64,000 nt of DNA, taken from contig NZ_JACSZW010000004.1 in the NCBI RefSeq assembly GCF_014472395.1, positions 372,001 through 436,000 on the forward strand. The letters run 5' to 3'. The position numbers and the translations under genes were made by a program. Each line of letters starts with the position of its first letter. Positions within the stretch are counted from its first letter, which is position 1. The stretch is from Pedobacter sp. N36a. Lineage in GTDB: Bacteria; Bacteroidota; Bacteroidia; Sphingobacteriales; Sphingobacteriaceae. Below the pieces are notes generated by a model, which ran no database searches, was not told the origin of the DNA, and saw only the letters and a list, made by a program, of their open reading frames with translations. This document shows positions 6,889-23,913 of the stretch, piece by piece.

Positions 6889-8178
6889 CTAAAGTCGCGC
6901 GTCAGTAAATTTGCGGTCAATAAATGATTTCGTATCAAAAATAATCGCCCCATTCCGCTGGTATTTCCCATAGTCGAAAGCTAAAAACTCCTGATGGGAA
7001 ACGGCCACAATAATGGCCTTATAGTTTTTATCTATTAAAGTTTTATCGAGTTGAAAACCGTATTCCTGCTGCACCAGCTCGGGATCTGCCCATGGATCAT
7101 AGACATTGATCTCCATTCCAAACTGCTGCAATTCCTCATAAATATCGATGACTCTTGTATTTCTGACATCCGGACAATTTTCTTTAAATGCAAAACCGAG
7201 GATCAGCACCTTCTCTCCTTTTACCGGATAGCCTTTGGCGATCATCAGTTTGACTACTTTATTGGCCACAAACATGCCCATATTGTCATTTACCCTTCTT
7301 CCCGACAGGATAACTTGCGGATGGTAGCCTAATGATTCGGCTTTATGGGCCAGGTAATAGGGATCTACCCCGATACAATGGCCGCCTACCAATCCGGGTT
7401 TATATTTCAGAAAGTTCCATTTTGTACCCGCAGCTTCGATCACATCCGTGGTATCGATGCCGATGCGGTCGAAAATCAGGGCCAGCTCATTGACAAAAGA
7501 AATGTTGACATCCCGCTGTGCATTTTCTATGGCCTTGGAGGCTTCGGCTACTTTGATACTTGGTGCTTTATGCGTACCGGCAGTGATGATCTGTCCATAC
7601 AGCTGGTCTATTTCTTCAGCAATTGCTGGCGTAGAGCCGGAAGTCACCTTTTTAATCTTTGTCAACGTATTGATGCGGTCTCCTGGATTGATCCTTTCCG
7701 GAGAATAACCGCAGAAGAAATCTTCATTGAACTTCAGTCCTGAGTACTGCTCCAGCACAGGTACACAGTCTTCTTCCGTACATCCGGGATAAACGGTAGA
7801 CTCATAAATGACGATGTCGCCCTTTTTTAACACCGCACCGATCATGGCAGAGGCTTTCAGCAATGGCTGTAGATCTGGTGCTTTAAATCGATTGATGGGC
7901 GTAGGAACGGTGACGATATAAATCTGGCATTGCTGTAAATCTGCTGTTGCAGCAGAAAACGCTAATCCTATTGGGCGATCGTCGGTATGGAGCACGGTTT
8001 TCAATGCTTCCAGGTCGGCCTCTCTAGTGCGGTCTTCCCCAGTAGAAAGCTCCTGAATCCGGACTTCGTCAATATCGAAACCGAGTACTTTATACTTTTT
8101 GGCGAATTCAATAGCGAGCGGCAACCCCACATACCCTAAACCTATAATTGCAATTTTATACGCTTTGTCCATATTCAT
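6889..8178 (-). CDS. Nucleotide-sugar 6-dehydrogenase (UDP-GlcNAc/GalNAc dehydrogenase, TviB/WbpA type)
   Basis: 429 residues in the UDP-glucose/GDP-mannose dehydrogenase family. The N-terminal Rossmann motif is GLGYVGLPLA (residues 13-22), and the catalytic cysteine is Cys268 in GGHCIGVDPYYLAHKAE, the variant typical of UDP-N-acetylhexosamine dehydrogenases such as TviB/VipA. The C-terminal domain has GFAFKENCPDVRNTR. It would oxidise C6 of a UDP-HexNAc to the uronic acid for O-antigen or capsule synthesis. An ATG two codons inside (8172) is an alternative start. No other sugar-pathway gene is adjacent, but it is divergent from an LCP-family gene that may attach polymers. Confidence 0.88.
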   Translation of the reverse strand: MNMDKAYKIAIIGLGYVGLPLAIEFAKKYKVLGFDIDEVRIQELSTGEDRTREADLEALKTVLHTDDRPIGLAFSAATADLQQCQIYIVTVPTPINRFKAPDLQPLLKASAMIGAVLKKGDIVIYESTVYPGCTEEDCVPVLEQYSGLKFNEDFFCGYSPERINPGDRINTLTKIKKVTSGSTPAIAEEIDQLYGQIITAGTHKAPSIKVAEASKAIENAQRDVNISFVNELALIFDRIGIDTTDVIEAAGTKWNFLKYKPGLVGGHCIGVDPYYLAHKAESLGYHPQVILSGRRVNDNMGMFVANKVVKLMIAKGYPVKGEKVLILGFAFKENCPDVRNTRVIDIYEELQQFGMEINVYDPWADPELVQQEYGFQLDKTLIDKNYKAIIVAVSHQEFLAFDYGKYQRNGAIIFDTKSFIDRKFTDARL

Positions 8179-8296: not shown

Positions 8297-9313
8297 ATGA
8301 AGATAATTAAAGCAAAAATGAGAATCCTAGTCTTATCGATCTTAGGGATCAGCTTGGGATTTTTCCAGCTGAAAGCACAAGACAGTACGGCCAATCGGGT
8401 CGACTTTATGGTTCCTCCTGCGGCAAAAAAAGTAGTGCAGCTGAACCGCTCTAATGCGGCATTGGGAATTTCGGCGAAGGCCCTGGCCAACCAGAAAAGC
8501 AAACAAAATCCGCCCATCAATATTGCTTTATTTGCGGTAGACCGGCGGACGGAAGCGGAGGCTGGAAACTCTGATGTGGTGATGGTGATCAGCATTGATC
8601 AGCTCAGCGGAAAGGTCAAAATGTTGTCCATTATGAGGGATACCTATGTGAATATCGAGGGTACAGGCATGAATAAGCTGAATGCAGCCTTCGCCATCGG
8701 CGGACCACAGCTGGCGATAAAAACCATCAATCAAAATTTCAACCTGGACATCAGGGACTATATCAACGTTGATTTTTATGGCGCAGCAAAGATTGTTGAT
8801 GCTTTAGGCGGAGTACAGATTCCGGTGAAAACCGAGGAGCTTCCTTACCTGAATAATTACCTGAATGAGCTGTCGATTTATGACAAAATCCCTGCTATAC
8901 CATTGACCCAGGCGGGCTTACAATTGCTGAGCGGAAAGCAGGCAGTTGCCTATACCCGGATCAGGGCTGTTGGTCATGGTGACGCCCAAAGAACAGAGCG
9001 TCAGCGCAGTGTACTCATTGCCATTTTCAATCAATTGAAACTAAAAGGTAAGGAAATTTTTCCCGTTTTTGCCACAGATGTCCTCCCTAACCTGGAAACG
9101 AGTATGAACAATTTCACACTTTTCAGCTTTGCCGGAAGTATTTTAAATTCAAAAAACAAGACCATAGAACAGGCCAGGTTTCCACTGGACAAAGAAAGCG
9201 TTGGAAAAAGAATTGATAACATTTGGTATTTAACCACCGACTTAAAAACGACTACAAATTCAATACATCAATTTATATATGGTTCAACAAACCTTGTAAA
9301 AACGAAACGGTAG
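8297..9313 (+). CDS. LytR-CpsA-Psr (LCP) family protein
   Basis: 338 residues with a signal sequence or N-terminal anchor (MRILVLSILGISLGFFQLKAQ from residue 8) followed by an LCP domain: PINIALFAVDRR, SDVVMVISIDQLSGKVKMLSIMRDTYVNI, NKLNAAFAIGG, DYINVDFYGAAKIVDALGGVQI and AYTRIRAVGHGDAQRTERQR, including the conserved Arg-rich strands that bind the polyprenyl pyrophosphate head group. Family knowledge: in Gram-positives, LCP proteins move glycopolymers from lipid carriers to the wall. Its job in this Gram-negative lineage is unclear. The divergent UDP-sugar dehydrogenase suggests a glycopolymer link. The start may be residue 1 or the Met at residue 8. Confidence 0.87.
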   Translation: MKIIKAKMRILVLSILGISLGFFQLKAQDSTANRVDFMVPPAAKKVVQLNRSNAALGISAKALANQKSKQNPPINIALFAVDRRTEAEAGNSDVVMVISIDQLSGKVKMLSIMRDTYVNIEGTGMNKLNAAFAIGGPQLAIKTINQNFNLDIRDYINVDFYGAAKIVDALGGVQIPVKTEELPYLNNYLNELSIYDKIPAIPLTQAGLQLLSGKQAVAYTRIRAVGHGDAQRTERQRSVLIAIFNQLKLKGKEIFPVFATDVLPNLETSMNNFTLFSFAGSILNSKNKTIEQARFPLDKESVGKRIDNIWYLTTDLKTTTNSIHQFIYGSTNLVKTKR

Positions 9314-9793: not shown

Positions 9794-10357
9794 ATGGAAG
9801 AATATCTAGGAATGATCAAAGCCTTTGCTGGAAATTTTGTACCAAGAGGTTTCCTGCCCTGCAATGGACAGTTAATCCCAATTCAACAAAATGCTGCTCT
9901 TTTTGCAATTTTAGGCACTACTTATGGTGGCGACGGACAAAATACTTTCGGCATTCCAGACTTTAGAGGCCGAGCTGCGATTGGAACAGGACAAGGGGCA
10001 GGTTTAGCTAATCACGTACTTGGTGAGAAGATAGGTGTAGAAACCGTTTCGATTTCAACCTCAAATATGCCGATACACACACATACCGCTACTACCACAA
10101 TAACCATGAACGTAAGCGCAGAAGATGCAACCCTGGCTGTTCCGGTAGCAAATAGTGCGATCGCAGTTTCCGTAGATGCAACAGGTGATCCAGCATTTGG
10201 GTTTAATTCAGAAGTACCTGAAGTTCCAATTGCCGGAGTCTCAGCGACCACTGTAAATGCAGCAGTAGGAGGTAGTTTACCAATATCGATCCAACAACCT
10301 ACACTAGCAATTAATTACCTCATTTGTACAGAAGGCCTATTTCCGAGCCGAAACTAA
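9794..10357 (+). CDS. Phage tail collar domain protein (MdpB / microcystin-dependent protein family)
   Basis: 187 residues. The N-terminal part has the collar signature: MIKAFAGNFVPRGFLPCNGQ, then LFAILGTTYGGDGQNTF and GIPDFRGRAAIGTGQG (about residues 7-72). The end, PTLAINYLICTEGLFPSR, is the usual C-terminal motif of the MdpB group. No signal peptide is visible. Family knowledge: these short collar proteins occur outside prophages in many environmental bacteria, often in small groups, with poorly known surface roles. There are no phage structural genes nearby. It sits 41 bp before the giant T9SS adhesin on the same strand, so co-expression is likely. Confidence 0.85.
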   Translation: MEEYLGMIKAFAGNFVPRGFLPCNGQLIPIQQNAALFAILGTTYGGDGQNTFGIPDFRGRAAIGTGQGAGLANHVLGEKIGVETVSISTSNMPIHTHTATTTITMNVSAEDATLAVPVANSAIAVSVDATGDPAFGFNSEVPEVPIAGVSATTVNAAVGGSLPISIQQPTLAINYLICTEGLFPSRN

Positions 10358-10398: not shown

Positions 10399-13300
10399 AT
10401 GAAAAAATTATCTATAACAGGCATCGCTGCCTTATTTTTATTGATGCTGTGCTCCTTTATTCCAAAAAACAGCACAGCACAAATCACCGCTGGAGATTTT
10501 GCCATTGTGGGATTTAATCCACTAGGCCAAAAGGCTGAAATCTCCATCATGGCTTTAAAGGAAATCCCCGCAGGTACAGAAATTAAAATCACGGATAATG
10601 CTTATCAAGATGGTATTTTTAGGACGAATTCCACGGATGGAATCCTGACATGGACTAGCCCTGCTGCTGCTGTAGTTTCAGCAGGAACAGTGATCAGAAT
10701 AGAATTTAACAACACCAGCGCTACCATTACGCCTAATCTTGGAACAGCTTCCGTTACAACAGGCTGGATATTAGGAGATATTACCCCACTAGCCGGCGAC
10801 AGCTGGATCATTTATACAGACATTGCTGGGGTTAAAACATACATTTATGCATTAGGAAACTGGTCGACCACCGCAGCTCAGTTTATACTTGATCCCAACA
10901 CAGGCTGGGTGACCTCAGGTTTAAATACAGGATCAGGAACCTCGCAACTTCCTCCTGGCCTTGCATCAGCAAACGCTTATGTTACCATTACCAACAATCC
11001 TCCAGGAAAAACACACCAATCTTCTGCTTATAATTATTATAAAGGCACATTGATGGGCAACAAGACCACTTTATTGGCAGCCATCAATAATGCAGACAAC
11101 TGGATGAGTGACAAAACAACACTTACCCCCATCACTCCGGGTATAACAGGAGCCTTTCCTGGCGTACAACCTATTTTCACTATTGTTGACGGGCCATTCG
11201 TAACCAGTGTATCCACTACTGCCAGCGCAGGACTAAAACCATTCTTTACCACTATTCCTATTACGATCAGTTTCAGTGAAAATGTCACCGTAACCGGCTA
11301 CCCTCGATTAAAATTAAACGTGGGTAATAATTATGCCAATTATGTCTCAGGAACTGGCAGCCAAAATCTTCGATTTGAATATTTGGTATTCACTCTAGAC
11401 TCCAGTACCGACCTTGATTACGAAAACATCAATTCTCTATCTTTGAATAGCGGCACCATAATAGGTGCAGCGAGTAAAGCAGCTATACTTACGCTGCCTG
11501 CTCCAGGAACGCCCAACGCTTTAGGAGGCAGAGGGATTAGTGTAGACCTGCTCTCTCCTACTGTCAGCAGTGTAAATACGACCATTGCGAATGGCAGTTA
11601 TGCCACCGGAAAGGTCATTCCTGTAACTGTGAACTTCTCTGAAGCTGTAACAGTAACAGGTACACCAACACTGCTTTTAAATACGAGCGGCACGCCGCTC
11701 AATTACCTTTCAGGCAGCGGAACTTCAACTTTAACATTTGAATATACCGTACTGGCAGGACAAAGTACTGCCGCCCTAAATTATGCAAACACAGCCGCCT
11801 TTGCTTTAAACGGAGGAACCATTAGGGATGCTGCAGCAAATGTGGCCACACTTACACTTCCTAACCCGTCAATGGGTCTAACAGGACCTTCAGGCAAAGC
11901 CAACATTATCATAGACACGACAAGCCCAACTGTAACCAGCGTAAGCGGTACAAACGGGACTTATAAAATAGGATCAATTGTTCCAATCAGCTTAACTTTT
12001 TCGGAACCGATCACAGTTACAGGCACGCCATTATTAGCGCTGAATGTTGGTAGTCCAGCTGGGAATGCCAGCTATGCAAGTGGCAGTGGGACCAGCACTC
12101 TGACCTTTAATTACACAGTAGCTGAAGAGCAAAGTGCTACTGATCTGGACTATACCAGCACCACCGCCCTTTCCTTAAACGGAGGAACACTTAAAGATGC
12201 GGCAGGAAACAATGCGACATTAACACTGGCAAGTCCTGGGACAGCAGGCTCGCTGGCTGCAAACTCCAGCATTGTGATCAACGGTACCCCCCCAACAGTA
12301 AGCAGCATCAACAGAACTACGGCTGCCGTAACCAATGCCAGTTCAGTGAATTTCACGGTTACTTTTTCTGAAGCAATAAGCGGCATAGATATCACAGACT
12401 TCAGTCTTATTTCTACAGGTATCGTAAGCCCAAGCATAAACAGCCTTACTGGATCAGGAACTACTTATACGGTTACCGTAAATACAGGGACAGGAAATGG
12501 TACGCTGCGTCTGGATTTAAACGCCGCAGGTACGGGAATTGTCGGAACCTCCTCAGGGAATGCGATTCAAACTGGATATACTGCCGGTCAAACTTATACT
12601 ATAGACAAAACTCCACCAGTGGCTATGGCTGGACCAATCCTTACTGCTGGAGATCAGCAACTTGTATTGGATTGGACTGCCAGCCCCACTGCAAACTCCT
12701 ATAAGATCTATGGCGGAACCACTACCACTACAGCGACCGCCCTTTTTCAAACCCTAAGTGGTTCTACACTGAGCTATACCCACACTGGTTTGACGAATGG
12801 CAGCACCTATTATTATGCCATTTCAGCAGTTGATCAGGCAGGAAATGAATCTATGAAGAGTGTAACGACTTCTGGGACACCAAAAGCTTCTCAAACCATT
12901 ACTTTCAGTGCGCCAGCTCCTCAGGTTTATGGCAGTTCATTTGACCTGACTGCAAGCAGTACTTCTCTATTGCCAGTTACATTTAGCTCTAGTAATATTG
13001 CGATAGCCACGGTTTCTGGAAACACAGTTACCATTGTTGGCGTAGGAGCGGTAAATATCACAGCAAGCCAGGCAGGAAATGCTAATTTTGTAGCAGCGAC
13101 TCCAGTAATCCAGTCTTTGCAAATCACCCCACTGCCAGTTACTGTTACTGCTACGGCCAGTTCAAAAATATTTGGCAATCCGGAACCGCTGAGTTTCGGC
13201 TTTAGTATCAGCCCAGCGCTGATCGGTACTGACACAAAAACAGGAGCGCTGGCCAGAGTAGCTGGAGAAAATGCAGGCAGCTATGAAATTGGCATTGGTA

Positions 13301-16300
13301 CATTTGCATTGGATCCTTTAAAATATACCATAACTTATGCGCCTGCTAATTTCAGCATCAGCAAAAAAATAGTAACGATTAACCCAGTTGTGAATACTAA
13401 AGTATATAACCAGATTGATCCTAGGTTAAGCTTTCTCATTGACGTCCCTGCTGTTCCAGTTACAGGTGCACTAGCCAGAACTGCTGGAGAAGATGTAGGA
13501 TCATATGATTATGACATCAGTGGAATGACGGTAGGTTCCAACTATCAGCTGGCATTGACCCCAACACCTAAATTCAGCATTACTCCTTTAACCATCAATG
13601 TGACCGCCAGCGCGACCACTAAAGCGTATGGTGATGCAGATCCGATCCTGGCTTATACTGCTACTCCGGCATTAAAATCCGGCGATTCCTTTACCGGAGC
13701 ATTGGCAAGAGCAGCGGGAGAATCCGTAGGAGCTTATGCACTGAATCGGGGAGACCTTGCTTTAAGCAGTAACTACCTGCTGAATTTCATCACTCCGGTG
13801 AATACCTTCAGCATTACGAAAAAAACAATTACCGTAGTTCCTGTGGCTGTGGCTAAAGTTTATGGTGAGCCAATTGTGCCTGCGACTTACAACTACAGTC
13901 CGGCCTTAGCAATTGGTGATTCCTTTAACGGAAACCTGACTGTCCCAACTGCAGGCCCGGCCGGAGATCACGACTTTAACATCGGTACACTTACTTTATC
14001 TGGCAATTATACCCTTGTTTTTGCTCCTGCTGCAATTAAATACAGTATCTCTAAAAAACCATTGACCATTACCCCTGATGCCAATCAAGGCAGGGTATTC
14101 GGAGCAGCAGCTTTACCGATTACCTACAGCAATTCGGCACTGGCCAGCGGTGATGTGCTGACTGGTGAATTGGCTATCGCTGGCGGTACAAACGCTGGTG
14201 ATCATGCGATCACACTTGGTACACTGAGCATGGCGGATGGTAAAATCATCAATTATGAAGTTAGCCTGGCTCCGGAAAACTATAACATCAGTCAGAAAGC
14301 AATTGTGCTGACTGCGGCATCACTGTCAAAAACTTATGGTGAGGCAGATCCGACATTAACTTATACCAGCAGTGCAGCGCCAATTGCTCCGGATGCCTTT
14401 GCTGGTACCTTAGGACGAGCGCCAGGAACAAATGTGGGCAGCTACGCGATTAACCTGGGTAGTTTAGCACTAAACAATAACTATACGCTGACTTTAGCGC
14501 CTGGAGCATCATTGGAAATTGTCAAAAAAGACATCTCCGTATTGGCCGAAGCGAAATCTAAAGTTTATGGCGGTACTGATCCTGAGCTGACTTATACTTC
14601 CAGTCCGGCATTAGTGATTGGTGATACCTTTAGCGGTGCACTCTCACGTGCAGCTGGTGAAGAGGCAGGCGCATATGTGATTGGAAAAGGAGATCTTGCT
14701 TTAAGTTCAAACTATAACCTAAACTATAGCCCTGCCAATTTAACGATCGGCCTGCAAACCATCAACGTGACCGCAAAAGCGAAAGCGAAAATTTATGGTG
14801 AGGCAGATCCAGCATTGGAATATGACTTCACACCGGCCTTAAAATCTGGTGATACCTTTAGCGGTTCGCTATCCCGTACAGCTGGTGAAAATGTAGGATC
14901 ATATGTGATTGGAAAAGGAGATCTTGCTTTAAGTTCAAACTATACCCTGAACTATAGCCCGGCCAATTTAATAATCGGCCTGCAAACCATTAACGTAACT
15001 GCGAAAGCAAAAACTAAAATTTATGGTGAGGCAGATCCGGCATTAGATTATGAGTTCACACCGGCACTAAAATCTGGTGATGTATTTATTGGTGCATTAT
15101 CCCGCGCAGCCGGTGAAAATGTAAGCACTTATGCCATCGGAAAAGGAGATTTGGCTTTAAATTCAAACTACATCCTGAATTATACACCTGCCAATTTGAC
15201 GATCGGCCAGCAAACCATTAACGTAACCGCAAAAGCGAAAACTAAAGTTTATGGCGAAGCAGATCCGGCATTGGATTATGAGTTCAGCCCTGCACTAAAA
15301 TCAGGGGATGTATTTACAGGCAGCCTATCTCGTGCAGCTGGTGAAACCGTAAACACCTATGTCATCGGAAAAGGAGACCTGGCTTTAAATTCAAACTATA
15401 TCCTGAACTATACGCCTGCCAATTTAACGATCACCTTGAAAACCATTAACGTGACCGCGAAAGCGAAAACTAAAGTTTATGGCGGTACTGATCCTGAGCT
15501 GACTTATACTTCCAGTCCGGCATTAGTGATTGGTGATACCTTTAGCGGTGCACTCTCACGTGCAGCTGGTGAAGAGGCAGGCGCATATGTGATTGGAAAA
15601 GGAGATCTTGCTTTAAGTTCAAACTATAACCTAAACTATAGCCCTGCCAATTTAACGATCGGCCTGAAAACCATTGAGGTTACCGCGAAAGTGAAAACTA
15701 AAGTTTATGGCGAAGCGGATCCAGCATTAGAATATGATTTTACACCTGCTTTAAAATCAGGTGATGAGTTTACCGGCGCACTGTCCCGTGCAGCTGGTGA
15801 AGATGTAGGCACATATGCGATTGGAAAAGGAGATCTTGCTTTAAGTTCAAACTATACCTTGAATTATACACCTGCCAATTTAACGATCGGCCTGCAAACC
15901 ATTAACGTGACCGCAAAAGCGAAAGCGAAAATTTATGGTGAGGCAGATCCAGCATTGGAATATGACTTCACACCGGCCTTAACATCTGGTGATACCTTTA
16001 GCGGTACGCTATCCCGTGCAGCTGGTGAAAATGTAGGATCATATGTGATTGGAAAAGGAGATCTTGCTTTAAGTTCAAACTATACCCTGAACTATAGCCC
16101 GGCCAATTTAATAATCGGCCTGCAAACCATTAACGTAACTGCGAAAGCAAAAACTAAAATTTATGGTGAGGCAGATCCGGCATTCGATTATGATTTCACA
16201 CCTGCTTTAAAATCTGGTGATGTATTTACTGGTGCACTATCCCGCGCAGCCGGTGAAAATGTAAACACCTATGCCATCGGAAAAGGAGATCTGGCTTTAA

Positions 16301-18432
16301 ATTCAAACTATATCCTGAATTATACGCCTGCCAATTTAACGATCGGCCAGCAAACCATTGAGGTAAGCGCGAAAGCCAAAACTAAAGTTTATGGCGAAGC
16401 AGATCCGGCATTGGATTATGAGTTCAGCCCTGCACTAAAATCAGGGGATGTATTTACAGGCAGCCTATCTCGTGCAGCTGGTGAAACCGTAAACACCTAT
16501 GTCATCGGAAAAGGAGACCTGGCTTTAAATTCAAACTATATCCTGAACTATACGCCTGCCAATTTAACGATCACCTTGAAAACCATTAACGTGACCGCGA
16601 AAGCGAAAACTAAAGTTTATGGTGAGGCAGATCCTGCATTGGATTACGACTTTACGCCGGCATTAAAATCCGGTGATAGTTTTACCGGTTCACTATCCCG
16701 CACAGCAGGAACATCTATCGGCAACTATGTGATCGGACAAGGCAATCTGGCTTTAAATGCAAATTATACGCTTGCATATACCCCGGCAAACCTGAGCATT
16801 ACTGCCAAAGCAATTGCCGTTCAGGCAGTCGCAAAAAGTAAAACGTATGGCAATGCCGATCCATTATTAACGTATACTGTGACGCCAGCCCTGGTTAATG
16901 GTGATGCACTTAGTGGTACACTGTCCAGAGCAAGCGGAGAAAATAAAGGTACTTATGCGATTTCTAAAGGCAGCCTGGCTTCCAGTACAGATTATACGCT
17001 AAGCTTTACCAACGCAGATTTCACGATTAATGCTGCTCCTTTAACCATCACAGCAGAAGCAAAAGAGAAATTCACTGGTACTGCAAACCCAACATTTACT
17101 GCGCAGTATACGGGTTATGTAAATGGAGAAGACAATACGGTACTGACAAGCCCGGTAGTATTCAATACACCGGCAACCATCAACAGTCCAATTGGAACTT
17201 ATGACATCATTCCTTCAGGAGCAGCTGCTGTCAATTACAGCATCACTTTTGTTAAAGGTGTACTGACCGTAAAAGCGGGATCGCCAACAAACGTATTGCT
17301 GGCTGCAGCTACGCTATATGAAAATCAGGTTTCAGGAACTGCAGCAGGTAAATTAAGCAGTACCTCCGATGACCCACTGGCTACCTTTACTTATAGCCTG
17401 GTGAGTGGAACCGGCGACACAGACAATGCTGCTTTCCGCATTGCAGGTGATCAGCTGCTAACCGCAGCAAGTCTGGATTATGAAACTAAAAAAGTATACA
17501 GTGTAAAAGTTAAAAGCACCACCCAACATGGTTTCTCTCTTGACAAAACCTTCAGCATCAACCTGAGCGATGTCAATGAAATTCCTACATTGGATGCGAT
17601 TGCCAGCAAAACCATTTGCTATACGACCAATACACAAACTATTGATTTAACAGGCATCAGCGCTGGTCCGGAATCTGGACAAAATACTACAGTTACCGTA
17701 TCCGGCAGCAACGCTGCATTGTTACAAAGCTTAACAGTAGCACCTGGTTCTGGCGGCAAAGCGATCCTCAGCTACCGCGTTAAAAATGGTGCTTCAGGCA
17801 TCAGTACGATCACCGTTACCGTAAAAGACAATGGTGGAACAGACAATGGTGGTGTAGATACCTATAGCAGAACGTTTGTACTGACTGTAAATGCTTTACC
17901 GGTGATTGCCATTAATGCCAACATCGGCAGCAACAACAACAGCAGCAGCACGGAGGTCAGCAAAGGTGAAACCCTGGTATTAACCGCCAGCGGTGGCAGT
18001 ACTTATGTTTGGGCAGTTCACAACAGCATTATTAGCGGTCAGACAAGTGCCAGCCTTACGGTTAGACCTAGGGAAACGACTACTTACACGGTTACCGTGA
18101 CCAATGCCAATGGCTGTTCTGAGCAGAAAAGCTTTACCGTGAATGTACTGGACGATCTGGTGAAGATCAAAGCCACCAATATTTTAACGCCTAACGGTGA
18201 TGGTTACAACGACAAATGGATCATTGAGAACATTGACTTCTATCCGAACAATGAGGTGAAAATTTTCGATCAATCAGGAAGAATGGTTTACGGTAAGAGG
18301 AGCTATGACAACAGCTGGGACGGAATGCTGAATGGCATGCCACTCGCTGAAGGTACCTATTATTATGTCATCGATTTTGGTAAAGACAGACAGAAATTCA
18401 AAGGATTTATCACCATTGTAAGAGAGAACTAA
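10399..18432 (+). CDS. Giant MBG-repeat T9SS type B cargo / adhesin
   Basis: 2677 residues. Order: signal peptide (ending NSTAQ); a lamin-tail-like domain (about 29-260, GDFAIVGFNPLGQKAEISIMAL); four Ig-like domains with SFSENVTVTG-type motifs (about 265-735); a fibronectin-III-like domain (about 737-830); a BIG-type Ig domain (about 832-910); about 18 MBG domains of ~76 residues (about 912-2293) with the core KxYGxADPxLxY and SNYxLNYxPANLTI; a cadherin-like repeat (about 2295-2395, ending SLDYETKKVYSVKV and NLSDVNE); further Ig-like domains; and a C-terminal gliding-motility-associated domain (from TNILTPNGDGYNDKW). That last domain is the type B signal for secretion by the type IX system, so the protein should be exported and held on the surface. 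PorP/SprF follows with overlapping codons. The MBG core is nearly identical at DNA level. Confidence 0.9.
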   Translation: MKKLSITGIAALFLLMLCSFIPKNSTAQITAGDFAIVGFNPLGQKAEISIMALKEIPAGTEIKITDNAYQDGIFRTNSTDGILTWTSPAAAVVSAGTVIRIEFNNTSATITPNLGTASVTTGWILGDITPLAGDSWIIYTDIAGVKTYIYALGNWSTTAAQFILDPNTGWVTSGLNTGSGTSQLPPGLASANAYVTITNNPPGKTHQSSAYNYYKGTLMGNKTTLLAAINNADNWMSDKTTLTPITPGITGAFPGVQPIFTIVDGPFVTSVSTTASAGLKPFFTTIPITISFSENVTVTGYPRLKLNVGNNYANYVSGTGSQNLRFEYLVFTLDSSTDLDYENINSLSLNSGTIIGAASKAAILTLPAPGTPNALGGRGISVDLLSPTVSSVNTTIANGSYATGKVIPVTVNFSEAVTVTGTPTLLLNTSGTPLNYLSGSGTSTLTFEYTVLAGQSTAALNYANTAAFALNGGTIRDAAANVATLTLPNPSMGLTGPSGKANIIIDTTSPTVTSVSGTNGTYKIGSIVPISLTFSEPITVTGTPLLALNVGSPAGNASYASGSGTSTLTFNYTVAEEQSATDLDYTSTTALSLNGGTLKDAAGNNATLTLASPGTAGSLAANSSIVINGTPPTVSSINRTTAAVTNASSVNFTVTFSEAISGIDITDFSLISTGIVSPSINSLTGSGTTYTVTVNTGTGNGTLRLDLNAAGTGIVGTSSGNAIQTGYTAGQTYTIDKTPPVAMAGPILTAGDQQLVLDWTASPTANSYKIYGGTTTTTATALFQTLSGSTLSYTHTGLTNGSTYYYAISAVDQAGNESMKSVTTSGTPKASQTITFSAPAPQVYGSSFDLTASSTSLLPVTFSSSNIAIATVSGNTVTIVGVGAVNITASQAGNANFVAATPVIQSLQITPLPVTVTATASSKIFGNPEPLSFGFSISPALIGTDTKTGALARVAGENAGSYEIGIGTFALDPLKYTITYAPANFSISKKIVTINPVVNTKVYNQIDPRLSFLIDVPAVPVTGALARTAGEDVGSYDYDISGMTVGSNYQLALTPTPKFSITPLTINVTASATTKAYGDADPILAYTATPALKSGDSFTGALARAAGESVGAYALNRGDLALSSNYLLNFITPVNTFSITKKTITVVPVAVAKVYGEPIVPATYNYSPALAIGDSFNGNLTVPTAGPAGDHDFNIGTLTLSGNYTLVFAPAAIKYSISKKPLTITPDANQGRVFGAAALPITYSNSALASGDVLTGELAIAGGTNAGDHAITLGTLSMADGKIINYEVSLAPENYNISQKAIVLTAASLSKTYGEADPTLTYTSSAAPIAPDAFAGTLGRAPGTNVGSYAINLGSLALNNNYTLTLAPGASLEIVKKDISVLAEAKSKVYGGTDPELTYTSSPALVIGDTFSGALSRAAGEEAGAYVIGKGDLALSSNYNLNYSPANLTIGLQTINVTAKAKAKIYGEADPALEYDFTPALKSGDTFSGSLSRTAGENVGSYVIGKGDLALSSNYTLNYSPANLIIGLQTINVTAKAKTKIYGEADPALDYEFTPALKSGDVFIGALSRAAGENVSTYAIGKGDLALNSNYILNYTPANLTIGQQTINVTAKAKTKVYGEADPALDYEFSPALKSGDVFTGSLSRAAGETVNTYVIGKGDLALNSNYILNYTPANLTITLKTINVTAKAKTKVYGGTDPELTYTSSPALVIGDTFSGALSRAAGEEAGAYVIGKGDLALSSNYNLNYSPANLTIGLKTIEVTAKVKTKVYGEADPALEYDFTPALKSGDEFTGALSRAAGEDVGTYAIGKGDLALSSNYTLNYTPANLTIGLQTINVTAKAKAKIYGEADPALEYDFTPALTSGDTFSGTLSRAAGENVGSYVIGKGDLALSSNYTLNYSPANLIIGLQTINVTAKAKTKIYGEADPAFDYDFTPALKSGDVFTGALSRAAGENVNTYAIGKGDLALNSNYILNYTPANLTIGQQTIEVSAKAKTKVYGEADPALDYEFSPALKSGDVFTGSLSRAAGETVNTYVIGKGDLALNSNYILNYTPANLTITLKTINVTAKAKTKVYGEADPALDYDFTPALKSGDSFTGSLSRTAGTSIGNYVIGQGNLALNANYTLAYTPANLSITAKAIAVQAVAKSKTYGNADPLLTYTVTPALVNGDALSGTLSRASGENKGTYAISKGSLASSTDYTLSFTNADFTINAAPLTITAEAKEKFTGTANPTFTAQYTGYVNGEDNTVLTSPVVFNTPATINSPIGTYDIIPSGAAAVNYSITFVKGVLTVKAGSPTNVLLAAATLYENQVSGTAAGKLSSTSDDPLATFTYSLVSGTGDTDNAAFRIAGDQLLTAASLDYETKKVYSVKVKSTTQHGFSLDKTFSINLSDVNEIPTLDAIASKTICYTTNTQTIDLTGISAGPESGQNTTVTVSGSNAALLQSLTVAPGSGGKAILSYRVKNGASGISTITVTVKDNGGTDNGGVDTYSRTFVLTVNALPVIAINANIGSNNNSSSTEVSKGETLVLTASGGSTYVWAVHNSIISGQTSASLTVRPRETTTYTVTVTNANGCSEQKSFTVNVLDDLVKIKATNILTPNGDGYNDKWIIENIDFYPNNEVKIFDQSGRMVYGKRSYDNSWDGMLNGMPLAEGTYYYVIDFGKDRQKFKGFITIVREN
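14566..16800 (+). repeat. Near-identical 228-bp MBG tandem array with a higher-order duplication
   Basis: Ten consecutive units of exactly 76 codons. Calling the units 7-16 of the protein, unit 11 repeats unit 7 (identical over about 190 bp, offset 912 bp = 4 units), while units 13, 14 and 15 repeat 8, 9 and 10 at an offset of 1140 bp = 5 units. The longest exact pair seen is 15238-15482 with 16378-16622 (245 bp). Unit 12 is therefore an extra unit inserted in, or lost from, one block. This pattern shows recent segmental duplication by unequal recombination. Confidence 0.9.
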
Positions 18433-18476
18433 TGAACGCTTTAACTTTCAATTTCACCGACTCAAACATCTTCAAG

Positions 18477-19367
18477 ATGAACAAAATTTATAAATATGGG
18501 TTAGGTCTGCTGATGGTTTTCACCATCGGCAGCACTGCCAAAGCACAGCTGAATCCTTTAGCCGCACAATATTATACCAATCAGTATCTGATCAATCCGG
18601 CAATGGCGGGAGCTCATCAGGGACTGAGGTTTAATGCTGCTTATCGTAAATTATGGAGCAATGTACCAGGATCTCCACTGACCCAGAATGTTACTGCTGA
18701 CTATGGTTTTAATAAGGTGGGTCTGGGCTTAAATGTGTACAATGAAAGCGCTGGTCTGCAAAGACAAACACGGGTAGTGGGAACTTATGCCTATCACCTG
18801 AAAATGAACAATGAAGACAATCAGCTTCATTTCGGGGTCTCTTTCGGTTTTATGAGTCAGCGATTAGAAAACAGTGATATTTATGGCAATCCAAATGATC
18901 CAGGGGTTGGTCAGTATAATGACCGAAAAACTTACCTGGATGGTGATTTTGGAGCAGCTTATACCACAAAGAAACTGACGGTTCAGGCTTCCATTCCCAA
19001 TCTGAAAAGTGTGCTGAAGAAGGACGTGATTAAGCTGGCCGATGTGTCTACTTTCTATGCTGCCGCAAGTTACCGTGTGAATTTATCTGAAGGGGAAAAT
19101 GGGTTCGACCTGGAGCCTAAAGTAGCCTATAGAGGGGTTCAAGGTTATGATAACATCTGGGATGCCGGTGCACAGCTGGAAATTGCCAACAAACAGGTAT
19201 TCCTGACCGCCCTATACCACAGCACAGAAAATGCAACTTTTGGTTTAGGAATGGACTTTAGAAAGAAATACCTGATCTCTGGTCACTATACCACACAGAC
19301 TTCCGCATTGAGCAAGTATACCAATGGTAGTTTTGAGCTGAACCTCAGACTGAACCTTGGAAAATAA
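18477..19367 (+). CDS. Type IX secretion outer membrane protein, PorP/SprF family
   Basis: 296 residues from ATG 18477, which opens the signal peptide MNKIYKYGLGLLMVFTIGSTAKAQ. An in-frame ATG at 18432 overlaps the stop of the adhesin gene (TAATG) and would add 15 residues, so translation may be coupled there. The mature part begins LNPLAAQYYTNQYLINPAMAGAHQGLRFNAAYRKLW, the family hallmark, and continues as a beta-barrel to the end LNLRLNLGK. Family knowledge: PorP/SprF proteins pair with type B C-terminal-domain cargos and are needed for their secretion or surface attachment. Direct adjacency to such a cargo supports this. Confidence 0.93.
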   Translation: MNKIYKYGLGLLMVFTIGSTAKAQLNPLAAQYYTNQYLINPAMAGAHQGLRFNAAYRKLWSNVPGSPLTQNVTADYGFNKVGLGLNVYNESAGLQRQTRVVGTYAYHLKMNNEDNQLHFGVSFGFMSQRLENSDIYGNPNDPGVGQYNDRKTYLDGDFGAAYTTKKLTVQASIPNLKSVLKKDVIKLADVSTFYAAASYRVNLSEGENGFDLEPKVAYRGVQGYDNIWDAGAQLEIANKQVFLTALYHSTENATFGLGMDFRKKYLISGHYTTQTSALSKYTNGSFELNLRLNLGK

Positions 19368-19444: not shown

Positions 19445-19474
19445 AAAACAGGAGATTTTTTAATCTCCTGTTTT
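19445..19474 (+). terminator. Intrinsic terminator after PorP/SprF
   Basis: Perfect 13-bp stem (AAAACAGGAGATT with AATCTCCTGTTTT, loop TTTT) ending in a T tract, 78 bp after the PorP/SprF stop. It separates the surface locus from the following oxygenase/sulfotransferase operon and overlaps the TTG codon that would otherwise be the upstream start of the next gene. Confidence 0.88.
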
Positions 19475-19496: not shown

Positions 19497-20177
19497 ATGC
19501 CATTAACACATCTCAAATTTAACATTCATTACGACCATCTGCAGCTCCAGCAGGAATTGAAATATTGTCTGGAGCAGGAATGGCCAATGCATTTCAACAC
19601 CAACGATTTTAATGGGGATTGGAGAAGTATTTCGCTCCGTTCGGCCTCCGGTAAGAGTGAGGATATCTATGCCCATACCGGCAGTTATCAGGACACTCCA
19701 TTGCTGCAGGCATCGCCTTATATCAACAGCATTGTCCATTCCTGGCGCTGTGAAAAGGAGTCGATCCGATTACTGGCCCTTGCCCCTGGAAGCATCATTA
19801 AACCACATAAAGATCCTGGCTGCAGCTATATGGAAGGAAGTTTCAGGATTCATATCCCTGTAGTGACCAACCCTGGGGTTCATTTCATGATCAATGACCA
19901 GCGTCTGCAATTGAAAGCAGGGGAATGCTGGTACCTGGATTTTAATGAGTCGCACAGCATTGTTAATGAAGGGAAGGAAACAAGGGTTCACCTGATTATG
20001 GATGGGATCAGGAATGCCTGGACCGATGAGCTGTTCAGAGATCATGGTTTTCCTATCTATGAGGTACCTAAAGGTCCGTCCTATGATGAAGCGACTAAAC
20101 TGCTGATCATCGCCGAATTGGAACGCCTCGATACCGATACCGCAAGAAGTGTGATCCAAAAACTAAAAAATAATTGA
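19497..20177 (+). CDS. Aspartyl/asparaginyl beta-hydroxylase-like Fe(II)/2-oxoglutarate oxygenase
   Basis: 226 residues from ATG 19497; a TTG eight codons upstream lies in the terminator and is rejected. The fold matches the Asp/Asn beta-hydroxylase family: first iron ligand His104 in PGSIIKPHKDPG (Asp106 is also present), distal His153 in DFNESHSIVNEG, and the 2-oxoglutarate Arg163 ten residues later in ETRVHLIMDG, the same spacing as in animal AspH. It would hydroxylate a peptide, amino acid or related substrate; the real substrate is unknown. No signal peptide, so cytoplasmic. First gene of a tight operon (4 bp to the sulfotransferase gene) that also holds a second oxygenase and an APS kinase. 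Confidence 0.85.
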   Translation: MPLTHLKFNIHYDHLQLQQELKYCLEQEWPMHFNTNDFNGDWRSISLRSASGKSEDIYAHTGSYQDTPLLQASPYINSIVHSWRCEKESIRLLALAPGSIIKPHKDPGCSYMEGSFRIHIPVVTNPGVHFMINDQRLQLKAGECWYLDFNESHSIVNEGKETRVHLIMDGIRNAWTDELFRDHGFPIYEVPKGPSYDEATKLLIIAELERLDTDTARSVIQKLKNN

Positions 20178-20181
20178 GCGC

Positions 20182-21141
20182 ATGAGGCCTGATTCACCTT
20201 TAACAAATTGGGTACCCTACCAACTGTTTCGTTCTGAAGAAGAAGAATGGATGCTGCATTGGATGGATCTGGAAGATCGCCAGATGAAAGAACCTTTTTT
20301 TGATGATACCATTGCCATTTCCCACTTAAAAAGGAGGGAAAAGAAGCGATTGCCCAGTGTCAGTTCTCCGGATTTCCTGTTGGCAGCAGCAGCTGAAATT
20401 CCACATGTTCCAGCAAGTGCTTTTGTGTTTCATATTTCGCGATGCGGATCTACACTGCTGAGTCAGGCCTTTGGAGAGGAAGCCGAAAATATCATCATCG
20501 CAGAAGCTCCGTTGCTAGATGAGCTGCTGAGGGCTTCGGAAAGAGGAACAATTACTGACTCGGAAAGAAAACATTGGTTTATGGCTGCCCTCAGCTTATT
20601 AGGTCAGCGTAGAAATGGAACCGAGCAGACCTTGATCATTAAGCTCGACAGCTGGCACCTGCATTTTTATGATACCTTACGCAGCTGGTATCCTGACACG
20701 CCATTTTTCTTTCTATTGCGCAGACCAGATGAGGTATTGGCCTCTCATGGGAAACAGCCAGGAATACATACCGTTCCCGGAATGGTCAATAAACAACTGC
20801 TGAACATTGATCCGCTGAAAGATTATGGCGGCGATTTCAGACAATTTACAGCCGATGTTTTAAAAGGGTTTTATGAACAGGCATATCTGATTCAACAGCT
20901 GCAGCATTCGAAAAATGATTTCGCCGATTATGGAGATGGCATCTCTGAAATGATTGATCAGTTTTCAAGCTTCGCCAATATTCAGATTAAAGATCGGGAA
21001 CAGCTCAATAATCGCCTAAAATACCATAGTAAATCAACCACAACAGCCTTCCAGAAAGACCGTATACCGGAACCCAAATACCATTATGCAGCGTGTATGG
21101 AGGCCTATCAAAAATTAAAAAAATCAAATGAGAGATTGTAG
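20182..21141 (+). CDS. Sulfotransferase family protein
   Basis: 319 residues. The PAPS 5'-phosphosulfate loop is FVFHISRCGSTLLSQAF (residues 81-97) and the 3'-phosphate strand is FFFLLRRPDEVLASHG (Arg180/181, Ser188). A helical N-terminal section of 75 residues precedes the P-loop. Known relatives move sulfate from PAPS to hydroxyl or amino groups. The neighbours fit this: an APS kinase two genes downstream could supply PAPS, and two oxygenases could create the accepting hydroxyl. No signal peptide. The 3' end overlaps the next gene by 14 bp. The acceptor is unknown; a nucleotide-binding protein with a different role is less likely. Confidence 0.8.
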   Translation: MRPDSPLTNWVPYQLFRSEEEEWMLHWMDLEDRQMKEPFFDDTIAISHLKRREKKRLPSVSSPDFLLAAAAEIPHVPASAFVFHISRCGSTLLSQAFGEEAENIIIAEAPLLDELLRASERGTITDSERKHWFMAALSLLGQRRNGTEQTLIIKLDSWHLHFYDTLRSWYPDTPFFFLLRRPDEVLASHGKQPGIHTVPGMVNKQLLNIDPLKDYGGDFRQFTADVLKGFYEQAYLIQQLQHSKNDFADYGDGISEMIDQFSSFANIQIKDREQLNNRLKYHSKSTTTAFQKDRIPEPKYHYAACMEAYQKLKKSNERL

Positions 21142-22078
21142 TTTCAGCAGCCAGTTTTACGAAAATCATGAGCTTGTAAAAAGAGGAAAAGGTATTCCCC
21201 GTGATGCAGATTACCAACATACAGAAGAAATATGGATGAACATTTATGGCCTTGGCAAATTTGAAACTTATGCCTTCCTGTACCGGGATTGCCGGGATTA
21301 TGATCATTTTATAGAATGGGCAACGGCATTGAAAGGCGCTGATTTTTTAAAACGCGCCAGTCAGGATTTTCAGCAATGGCAGGAAAATAAGAACGCTGAT
21401 TGCCCAGCCGAGGATTATCCGAAGGTGTTAACAGCAGAACAACTGAGCTTCTGGGAGGAAAATGGCTACCTCAGAATTCCCCAGGCACTCGAAGCGGAAC
21501 ATTGCGACAAGTTGAAACAACGCATTTGCAGACACCTGAACCTGCACATGGATTACCCGGAAACCTGGTACATTCCACATCCAGACTGGCAAGGGATCAT
21601 GCTGCAGATGTATCAAAATGAAGATATTGAGGCCGTCAGACAGTCTCCAGCAATCAAACAGATTTTTGCGGAGCTTTACCAAAGCAATCAGCTCGTGGCC
21701 ATCCCGGAAAAATTAGGTTACCATCCGCCGCAGAATGAAAATTGGGCACCGCCGCAAACAAAATTGCACTGGGACCTGAACATAGACCGCCCAATAGGGT
21801 TTCATATTCAAGGACTGATCTATCTCAATGAGGTGCCTGAAAATCGTGGTCCGCTGCAAGTGGTGCCAGGATTTCACCTGCGCTTCGAAGAATGGATCAA
21901 AGATTTCTCGAGTCTGGATAGAGCACATGAGTTTCTTCGGATTACCGAAAAATCAGTACCAGTGCCAGGTGGTAAAGGTGACCTGATCCTGTGGCGTAAT
22001 ACTTGTCCGCATGCGGCAAGTGCCAACCTTTCTGAACTCCCTAGATTTGTACAGTATATTAGCTATCATAAGTTGTAA
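21128..22078 (+). CDS. Phytanoyl-CoA dioxygenase (PhyH) family oxygenase with novel N-terminal segment
   Basis: 316 residues. Residues about 100-316 are a PhyH-type double-stranded beta helix: iron ligands His214 and Asp216 in KLHWDLNID, His295 in NTCPHAASAN, and the 2-oxoglutarate Arg306 in LPRFVQYI. The segment QGLIYLNEVPENRGPLQVVPGFH is the family core. Residues 1-95 are an added helical region (Trp/Tyr-rich, HTEEIWMNIYGLGKFETYAFLYRDCRDYDHFIEW) that I do not recognise. It overlaps the sulfotransferase gene by 14 bp and is followed after one base by the APS kinase, so all are co-translated. Substrate unknown; small hydroxylated metabolites or lipids are typical for PhyH enzymes. Confidence 0.83.
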   Translation: MRDCSFSSQFYENHELVKRGKGIPRDADYQHTEEIWMNIYGLGKFETYAFLYRDCRDYDHFIEWATALKGADFLKRASQDFQQWQENKNADCPAEDYPKVLTAEQLSFWEENGYLRIPQALEAEHCDKLKQRICRHLNLHMDYPETWYIPHPDWQGIMLQMYQNEDIEAVRQSPAIKQIFAELYQSNQLVAIPEKLGYHPPQNENWAPPQTKLHWDLNIDRPIGFHIQGLIYLNEVPENRGPLQVVPGFHLRFEEWIKDFSSLDRAHEFLRITEKSVPVPGGKGDLILWRNTCPHAASANLSELPRFVQYISYHKL

Positions 22079-22079
22079 C

Positions 22080-22652
22080 ATGGGAATCCTCATTCAGTTT
22101 TGCGGGCTCTCCGGTGCCGGAAAAACAACATTGGCGAATGCCCTGGCAGAAAAATGGCGTCAGAATGGTCGGAAGGTGATGGTGATGGATGGCGACGATT
22201 ATAGGCAGTCGCTGTGTAAAGATCTGGGTTTTAGTAAAGCCGACAGACTGGAAAATGTTCGCAGAATTAAGGAAGAAGCGAAACGCATTAGCGCGGAGTA
22301 TGACCTGGTGCTGCTCTCCATTATCAACCCATTTGAAGCAGGAAGAAAACTGGTGTTTTCAAAAGAAGAGATGGAACTGGTATGGATTAAATGTGGCTTG
22401 TCGACATTGAGAGCAAGGGATACGAAAGGGCTGTACTTTAAAGCGCATTTGCCAGATGGACACCCGGATAAGATTTATAACCTGACCGGGGTTAATGATG
22501 CGTTTGAGGTTCCAGGAGCAGCAGCGCTGGTCATAGAAACGGATGTGCTGGGCTTTGAAGAAAGTTTGGAGTGTTTAAACAGGTATTTGGAAGGGAAAGA
22601 ATTGGAAGGGAAAGATTTGGAAAAAAAGAGGCAGGAACTACTCCAAGGCTGA
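22080..22652 (+). CDS. cysC: Adenylyl-sulfate kinase (APS kinase)-like
   Basis: 190 residues from ATG 22080, one base after the preceding stop; a longer reading frame extends upstream inside PhyH but the P-loop lies right after this ATG. Motifs: Walker A GLSGAGKTT (9-17), DGDDYRQSLCKDLGFSKADRLENVRRI (38-63, the APS-kinase signature), DTKGLYFKA (114-122) and NLTGVNDAFEVP (134-145). The usual phosphoacceptor segment ISPF is INPF here, so Ser is replaced by Asn83, and the following Arg by Glu. It would turn APS into PAPS for the sulfotransferase of the same operon. No ATP sulfurylase gene is present. A different phosphoryl acceptor remains possible. The tail (KELEGKDLEKKRQ) is low-complexity. 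Confidence 0.82.
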   Translation: MGILIQFCGLSGAGKTTLANALAEKWRQNGRKVMVMDGDDYRQSLCKDLGFSKADRLENVRRIKEEAKRISAEYDLVLLSIINPFEAGRKLVFSKEEMELVWIKCGLSTLRARDTKGLYFKAHLPDGHPDKIYNLTGVNDAFEVPGAAALVIETDVLGFEESLECLNRYLEGKELEGKDLEKKRQELLQG

Positions 22653-22974: not shown

Positions 22975-23913
22975 ATGAAAACCTTAATTTTTACAAATAG
23001 CGCTTTATACTTAAATACCGCTTTAAGCATTCACGAACATTGCGATGTTGCAGGACTTGTTGTTCCTGAAGAACTAAACTATGAGCTGTTGGGCACGATT
23101 GCTTATGCAGAAAGCAGAGGAATTCCTTTGTTAAAAATTGCTAAATCTGACCTTGAACAAGGTGGCAAAGTAGCCTCTTGGATACAAGAATTAAAGGTGG
23201 AAGCAGTACTTGTATTGACTTTCCCATGGATGATTCCGGAACACTTATTAAAATCAACGGAGAAAGGATTCTTCAATGTACATTTCAGCAAGCTTCCTTC
23301 TTATAAAGGATCAGCTCCATTGTTCTGGCAGCTGAAAAACGGCGAGAAAGAAACCGGTTTAACCGTTCATAGAATGACCAGCAATGTAGATAGCGGTCCG
23401 ATGGTGTTCAGACAGGAATTACAATTGTATCCTGGAGAAAATTATGGTCTTGCTAAAGCTCGTTTAACTGCTTTTCTTGCGGAAAGTATGCCTCAAATAT
23501 TAGAAAGAATTAAAGCAGAACAATACCTGTATGTTGGTGATGAAGACATCGAAAGTTCTTTCGGTATTCCTGAAGTAAAAGACCTGACCATCAATTGGGA
23601 TACGCATACGGCCGCAGAAATCGAAAACATGGTAAATGCAGCCAACCCGCTGTACCAAGGTGCTATCACCTATATCGGCGGACAACAGGTAAGAATTTTT
23701 GAAGTGACTTCCGTTACTGGCGAATTTGATCCGGGAACCGCAGCCGCAGGAACAGTTTTCCACATAGAACCAGAACATGGTCCGATGATATTAACTTCCG
23801 ACAAGTCATTGCTGCTATTGAATGTTGTAGGAACCATGGAAGGAATTTTCAGTGGAAAGAAAATGTGTGCAATCGGACTGAAAGTAGGTGATCAGTTCAT
23901 CACGCTAAGCTAA
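22975..23913 (+). CDS. Formyltransferase family protein (methionyl-tRNA formyltransferase-like)
   Basis: 312 residues with the N10-formyl-tetrahydrofolate-dependent formyltransferase fold. The catalytic triad is visible: Asn101 and His103 in FFNVHFSKLPSYKGSAPLFWQL, and Asp139 in MTSNVDSGPMVF. The C-terminal ~110 residues (from about DLTINWDTHTAAEIENMVNAANP) form an Fmt-like OB domain. It is not in the usual fmt/def context and is clearly diverged from standard Fmt, so a dedicated substrate such as an amino-sugar or amino acid derivative is more likely than initiator tRNA, though tRNA is not excluded. It stands alone between two structured intergenic regions carrying related hairpin repeats in opposite orientation. 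Confidence 0.82.
   Translation: MKTLIFTNSALYLNTALSIHEHCDVAGLVVPEELNYELLGTIAYAESRGIPLLKIAKSDLEQGGKVASWIQELKVEAVLVLTFPWMIPEHLLKSTEKGFFNVHFSKLPSYKGSAPLFWQLKNGEKETGLTVHRMTSNVDSGPMVFRQELQLYPGENYGLAKARLTAFLAESMPQILERIKAEQYLYVGDEDIESSFGIPEVKDLTINWDTHTAAEIENMVNAANPLYQGAITYIGGQQVRIFEVTSVTGEFDPGTAAAGTVFHIEPEHGPMILTSDKSLLLLNVVGTMEGIFSGKKMCAIGLKVGDQFITLS

Follow-up and report, generated by a model that had tools for sequence, protein, structure and literature searches.

A four-enzyme module that accompanies Collar proteins ending in asparagine in Pedobacter sp. N36a and its relatives, and its possible role in protein modification

What is made by the four closely packed enzyme genes A to D of the soil bacterium Pedobacter sp. 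N36a? The genes lie in a window of 64,000 nucleotides, the whole stretch of DNA analysed (contig NZ_JACSZW010000004.1, positions 372,001 to 436,000). They encode a hydroxylase, a sulfotransferase, an oxygenase and a kinase of adenosine 5'-phosphosulfate (APS). A preliminary description had read them as a pathway to a sulfated metabolite. Most likely they modify a surface-fibre protein and do not make a metabolite. At about even confidence, A to D form an accessory module for the maturation of a surface cassette of Collar protein and giant adhesin, in which A would hydroxylate and B would sulfate the C-terminal asparagine (Asn) of the Collar.

Gene A: 19497-20177, + strand, 226 amino acids (aa), Fe(II)/2-oxoglutarate (2OG) hydroxylase with the AspH/L-proline-hydroxylase fold
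Gene B: 20182-21141, + strand, 319 aa, sulfotransferase of the type that uses 3'-phosphoadenosine 5'-phosphosulfate (PAPS)
Gene C: 21128-22078, + strand, 316 aa, PhyH-family oxygenase
Gene D: 22080-22652, + strand, 190 aa, APS kinase

All four open reading frames (ORFs) were recovered as first described, with spacings of +4 (A/B), -14 (B/C) and +1 (C/D).

Distribution of the module and the last residue of Collar proteins

The family survey covered 301 genomes of the same family as the host. B is present in 55. Fetched B loci also number 55 (54 genomes and Pedobacter polysacchareus L031), with gene presence scored by tblastn. A adjoins B in 51 of the 55 loci, always on the same strand and within 559 bases; in the four A-less loci A sits elsewhere in the genome. 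C is found in 34 loci, D in 34 and all four genes in 23, C and D lying on either strand. A-B fusions occur in two loci (L037, L046), D-C fusions in four (L074, L076, L077, L081). The gene order is shuffled yet the company is kept, which together with the fusions argues that A to D serve one function. The co-occurrence in relatives that the preliminary description had named as its own check was thus found.

A is present in 60 of the 301 genomes, namely all 55 B-positive genomes and five B-negative ones. All 60 fall among the 111 genomes with a Collar protein (Fisher 1e-32), and all 55 B-positive genomes carry both A and Collar; Fisher p values for the nested pattern are 2e-29 and 1e-32. Neither B (55/55 with Collar) nor A (60/60) was found without a Collar protein among the 301. 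A sample of 395 genomes from the phylum has A in 24 and Collar in 103, with Collar in 23 of the 24 A-positive genomes (p 1e-13). The exception, G344, has the weakest A match (104 bits). In genus g29 all 15 A-positive genomes have Collar; in 13 of them A is separated from the listed Collar places by more than 1 Mb or sits on another contig, and seven of the 15 A loci are arranged D-A-B.

Alignment of Collars from B-positive and B-negative loci gives one outstanding difference, the last residue. Of the 118 complete Collars from A-positive family genomes, 107 have Asn as their last residue, the others ending in D (4), S (4), T (2) and P (1); each of the 59 genomes has at least one Asn-ending Collar. 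In A-negative family genomes Asn ends 7 of the 57 Collars read, in 6 of 32 genomes. In the five genomes with A but without B, 13 of 15 Collars end in Asn and two in Asp. The C-terminal Asn tracks A, not B. Outside the family Asn ends 29 of 38 Collars in A-positive genomes (18/18 genomes) and 10 of 37 in A-negative ones (9/19 genomes). Over 250 Collars the count is 136/156 with A against 17/94 without it. When 701 combinations of column and residue were tested, C-terminal Asn ranked first (1e-28), and no column elsewhere than at the C-terminus did better than 8e-9. Stratified by genus, the Mantel-Haenszel odds ratio is 157; the association is significant in each of g1, g14 and g16 but in neither g4 nor g29.

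These counts were read as follows. Within the family, four truncated Collar ORFs and 19 of the 51 Collar-positive A-negative genomes were left out; A-positive G180 has only a truncated Collar, and in some genomes not all Collar copies were read. In the phylum, 40 stretches from 38 of the 103 Collar-positive genomes were read, the A-negative ones chosen non-randomly from top Collar scores. Phylum stretches left out were those of A-positive G525, G582 and G628 and the second places in G636 and G575; G385 has no complete Collar.

The pattern recurs in another phylum. On two Pseudoalteromonas plasmid records an A homologue and three Collars lie 2-3 kb apart, and each of these Collars ends in RN. 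Among 26 Collars on ten plasmid records whose stretches lack A, four have a C-terminal Asn. The Pseudoalteromonas A homologue had no match in phage records.

Families of the enzymes and supply of PAPS

The family assignments of the preliminary description stand for A, C and D; B by itself stays below its Pfam cut-off, and most members of its family match PF13469 at E <= 0.1.

A belongs to PF05118 (E 1.3e-19, 71 bits, cut-off 22.6). H104-x-D106, H153 and R163 are unchanged across 24 sequences and alignable with 4p7w; the first three are presumably metal-binding and R163 2OG-binding, as is known of the family. Among solved structures, those closest in sequence are L-proline hydroxylases (4p7w, 4.9e-19). 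The structural model of A has a mean predicted local distance difference test score (pLDDT) of 83. By fold its closest matches are a hydroxylase from a nucleoside-antibiotic pathway, the L-proline cis-4- and 3-hydroxylases, and AspH, which acts on proteins (Z 14.8-16.1). A is predicted to hydroxylate some substrate. In genome G218 (locus L069), which has B and a Collar ending in Asn, A is broken into two ORFs, either by a recent lesion or through a sequencing error.

B alone matches PF13469 (Sulfotransfer_3) at E 0.047 (14.4 bits, cut-off 27); 23 of 24 B-family members match it at E <= 0.1, the best at 5.7e-7. B has a phosphosulfate loop, H84-x-SRCGSTL-92, and a 3'-phosphate pair, R180 and S188. 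The motif columns are invariant in 24 sequences, and their spacing presumably agrees with that of the SULT motif. No PDB entry matched the B profile significantly; an anti-CRISPR protein came first (E 0.064), and the CurM sulfotransferase reached 0.46.

C matches PF05721 (PhyH) from residue 109 (E 4.4e-16). It has H214-W-D216, H295 and R306, of which H214, D216, H295 and R306 are invariant in 23 sequences. The N-terminal segment of about 95 residues, singled out in the preliminary description, is present throughout the C family. C resembles ectoine hydroxylase and further small-molecule oxygenases.

D matches PF01583, APS kinase (E 9.6e-37, 126.8 bits, cut-off 21.1), and just misses the NCBIfam apsK cut-off (136.9 against 138.7 bits). 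The P-loop, DGD, LGFS, DR-x-EN and KGLY motifs are kept in most of 28 sequences. Solved APS kinases match from 2.4e-25. D is the only full-length APS kinase found in its own genome, where the other match covers 44 of 152 positions (21.7 bits). The same genome has two adjacent PF01507 genes of CysD/CysH type.

The supply of PAPS to B, proposed in the preliminary description, is supported by distribution. An APS kinase is present in 54 of 55 B-positive genomes, beside B in 34 and elsewhere in 20 of the other 21; the B locus of G004 runs into a contig end. Among 59 B-negative genomes, a non-random choice of five with A, 42 with Collar and without A, and 12 without Collar, an APS kinase was found in 16, and in none of the five with A.

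The surface cassette in the window and elsewhere

The module stands in a run of genes of one direction: Collar, adhesin, PorP/SprF, A to D and a formyltransferase. The operon had been described as isolated; it instead closes the Collar-adhesin-PorP run.

Collar-domain protein, phage-tail-fibre type: 9794..10357, + strand, 187 aa, PF07484 4.5e-26
Giant secreted adhesin: 10399..18432, + strand, 2677 aa, MBG repeats and type IX secretion system (T9SS) type B sorting domain
PorP/SprF family protein: 18432..19367, + strand, PF11751 3.2e-52, adjoining the adhesin
A/T-rich hairpin between PorP and A: 19446..19473, + strand, -18.7 kcal/mol, z -6.6, terminator or attenuator
Gene E, formyltransferase of Fmt/ArnA type: 22975..23913, + strand, PF00551 1.9e-20

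The window Collar terminates in FPSRN, with the codon of the C-terminal Asn at 10352-10354, and is the sole PF07484 match in its genome (E <= 0.001). The adhesin has 16 MBG_2 stretches in the part scanned, and matches CHU_C (1.3e-27) and, over cut-off, TIGR04131 (7.9e-20). Type B sorting domain and neighbouring PorP/SprF gene together mark it as a T9SS type B protein. Type B adhesins are reported to bind PorP-like proteins (PMC9143113). The PorP/SprF protein is probably the outer-membrane partner of the adhesin, and E is a probable further cassette part. The hairpins formerly placed on both sides of the module differ: the upstream one is strong, the downstream one no better than shuffles (z about -0.9). 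A terminator scan of the + strand listed neither. The earlier statement that no polysaccharide genes lie beside the module holds for the immediate neighbours. About 10 kb upstream are genes for UDP-sugar dehydrogenase (6889-8178) and for a LytR/CpsA/Psr protein (8297-9313), and the surface-protein system immediately upstream had been missed. An efflux system (major facilitator superfamily (MFS)-like, HlyD, outer-membrane efflux protein) lies downstream.

Neighbours were clustered over 56 loci, the 55 B loci and part of the window. Collar-type proteins recur in 38, a periplasmic-binding-type protein in 31 and a formyltransferase in 23 (22/55 B loci by tblastn). Of 20 Collar loci from genomes that lack B, 12 have the formyltransferase cluster and seven the binding protein. 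The Collar-adhesin cassette is therefore wider than the module, and A to D look accessory to it. The big secreted proteins beside the module split into several clusters; A and the Collar Asn are constant. No scaffold-making enzyme was seen among gene clusters recurring in at least three of the 56 loci, judged by eye and for some by Pfam. No conserved precursor of a ribosomally synthesized and post-translationally modified peptide was found in the 56 loci among ORFs of 22-89 aa that begin with ATG and do not lie within larger genes. Recurring small ORFs are fragments of, or lie opposite, A and its neighbours, or are common to two to four close loci.

Three further proteins were observed. A small protein with an LHEAGH motif occurs in 12 of the 56 loci (L058:3835-4326, L073:3696-4241 and ten more); two were scanned, with no Pfam match. 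It is possibly a metalloprotease of the system. Another, in 20 of 56 loci (e.g. L064:3821-4729), begins in a way that by eye recalls a twin-arginine signal and contains a region similar to 5'-nucleotidase/UshA, though below cut-offs; it could clear adenosine 3',5'-bisphosphate (PAP) or another nucleotide. A Peripla_BP_6 protein with no evident signal peptide (by eye) occurs in 31 of 56 (e.g. L035:7764-8912), commonly near Collar genes.

Outside Bacteroidota a GNAT/N-acetyltransferase adjoins the Collars in seven of eight plasmid Collar loci (L232-L241). Three of these proteins were scanned; their best NCBIfam match is RimI, below cut-off. In Spirosoma (L238) and many Bacteroidota loci a formyltransferase takes its place, and the two may be interchangeable acylators of one target.

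Relatives of B are found on Azospirillum, Tistrella and Agrobacterium plasmids, with no A in the fetched stretches. The Azospirillum one lies in a lasso-peptide-like neighbourhood, the Agrobacterium one near a nonribosomal peptide synthetase (NRPS). The B family is thus not confined to Collars. On the Azospirillum TSH100 plasmid (L227:8478-17559) the B-like sulfotransferase is annotated as an Asp/Asn hydroxylase in the lasso-peptide-like cluster, with three Collar genes nearby; these Collars end in N, A and N. Diaphorobacter and Asticcacaulis encode proteins of about 600 aa that join an A-like domain to an annotated sulfotransferase (L226:8995-10887; L229:7974-9764). The Diaphorobacter fusion adjoins an IPTL-CTERM surface protein; the Asticcacaulis fusion alone matches the B profile, weakly. 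Neither locus has a Collar within the fetched stretch. Eight viral contigs with A-like proteins have no Collar in the fetched stretch. One of them, L218, encodes A, a small ORF, presumably Nif11-like, and B at the contig end. L218 was found via A; the B scan of viral contigs gave no relative and was thus not exhaustive.

Proposed function, alternatives and known systems

The proposed maturation would run as follows. A would hydroxylate the free C-terminal Asn of the Collar (FPSRN end), most likely at the beta carbon. D would convert APS to PAPS. B would move the sulfo group from PAPS onto the new hydroxyl. C may add a second, optional oxidation at some site. The mature Collar would sit on the surface fibre. 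Collars with Asn exist without A, A exists without B, and B without A is unseen in the family, which suggests that A acts first and B second. Kin enzymes grip the carboxylate of free amino acids, so A could act on a free C-terminal residue. A Collar Asn hydroxylated and then O-sulfated (sulfo-oxy-asparagine), forming a sulfated tip on adhesin fibres, would be a new protein modification; this fuller form is tentative and less likely than not. In CurM-type chemistry sulfate is a leaving group for further reaction. By analogy the Collar sulfate might be one too.

Several observations weigh against this proposal. C is missing from 21 of the 55 loci, and D likewise from 21. In g29 eight of 15 A loci have no B within about 1.5 kb, B elsewhere in the genome not having been searched. 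Asn ends 17 of 94 Collars without A, often as one member of a Collar triplet, and is absent from the end of 20 of 156 Collars of A-positive genomes. A phylogeny-controlled pair test, on a tree built without the last four residues and with 12 independent pairs on well-supported branches, is favourable, not decisive: 7.3 pairs agree, 0.7 disagree, and the median p of 0.04 is borderline. The AlphaFold model of B (five sequences) has a pLDDT of 39.6 and is unusable. The best solved relatives of A use free amino acids. The chemistry is a proposal drawn from gene associations.

The most probable alternative gives A to D a different target within the cassette (side chains of the adhesin, a glycan or a lipid); the Collar Asn would then be a docking or recognition signal. 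Collar, adhesin and formyltransferase (GNAT in other phyla) recur together and with the enzymes. PF05118 also includes lipid hydroxylases; the LpxO model matches A at E 0.0027, far below cut-off. The sugar dehydrogenase and LytR/CpsA/Psr genes upstream also speak for it. Yet the secreted neighbours vary in cluster whereas A and the Collar Asn do not, and it is the last residue that carries most of the signal, as expected of a modified or bound terminus. This alternative is rather unlikely, and the Asn is preferably read as the substrate.

The small sulfated metabolite of the preliminary description, with the Collar link due to shared ecology or co-transfer, is improbable. The likeness of A to hydroxylases of free L-proline and of C to ectoine hydroxylase and small-molecule oxygenases speaks for it, as does the efflux system downstream. 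Against it stand the Collar in 60/60 A-positive family and 23/24 phylum genomes, often distant from A, the covariation of the Collar C-terminus with A, and the lack of a scaffold-making enzyme among the recurring clusters and of a conserved small precursor ORF. With neither A nor B seen in a family genome that lacks a Collar, a free metabolite is unsupported.

Hitch-hiking of Asn-ending Collar lineages inherited along with the module is slightly less probable still: in its favour are the kinship of the sequences, the borderline result of the strict pair test and the Asn-ending Collars that several lineages have without A, but the signal holds within g1, g14 and g16, in most triplet members of A-positive genomes, in genomes with A and without B, outside the family and in another phylum, and no other column is comparable.

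Collar genes are widespread (103/395 phylum, 111/301 family genomes) and often adjoin giant adhesins. In the part of the open-licence literature covered, no report of the module or modification and no paper assigning Collar genes a role was found. Covariation of one C-terminal residue with a hydroxylase offers a sharp, cheap test of the nature and maturation of Collars. Modification of the Collar by A to D, if true, would be a new bacterial C-terminal protein modification, would give stray APS kinases and sulfotransferases a role and would provide a handle on a widespread surface system. Covariation of residues with genes at protein termini could expose further modifying enzymes.

Four known systems are comparable. 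Phage tail Collar proteins (PF07484) share their domain with the proposed substrate. Unlike them, the window Collar is chromosomal and beside a T9SS adhesin; the genes scanned around it (adhesin, PorP, LytR/CpsA/Psr, UDP-sugar dehydrogenase, TonB receptor) include no phage structural gene. AspH and bacterial L-proline hydroxylases share the fold of A, and AspH also its Pfam family. AspH works inside EGF domains, proline hydroxylases on free proline. A, set beside them, has the conserved H-x-D...H triad and the Collar association. RaxST of Xanthomonas is like the proposed B a bacterial sulfotransferase of a ribosomal product, sulfating tyrosine of the secreted peptide RaxX. The tyrosine is already present in the peptide; to our knowledge the system has no hydroxylase step and no Collar protein. 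CanE of the canucin A pathway (Streptomyces canus) is an Fe/2OG beta-hydroxylase of the C-terminal Asp of a lasso precursor (PMC9266682). Its substrate, unlike that proposed for A, is a lasso precursor with a 14-residue core, the leader-binding CanB1 assists, and no sulfotransferase is named in the available part of that source (PMC9266682). Like the proposed A, CanE is an oxygenase acting on the last residue of a ribosomally made precursor, so that C-terminal hydroxylation has a precedent (PMC9266682).

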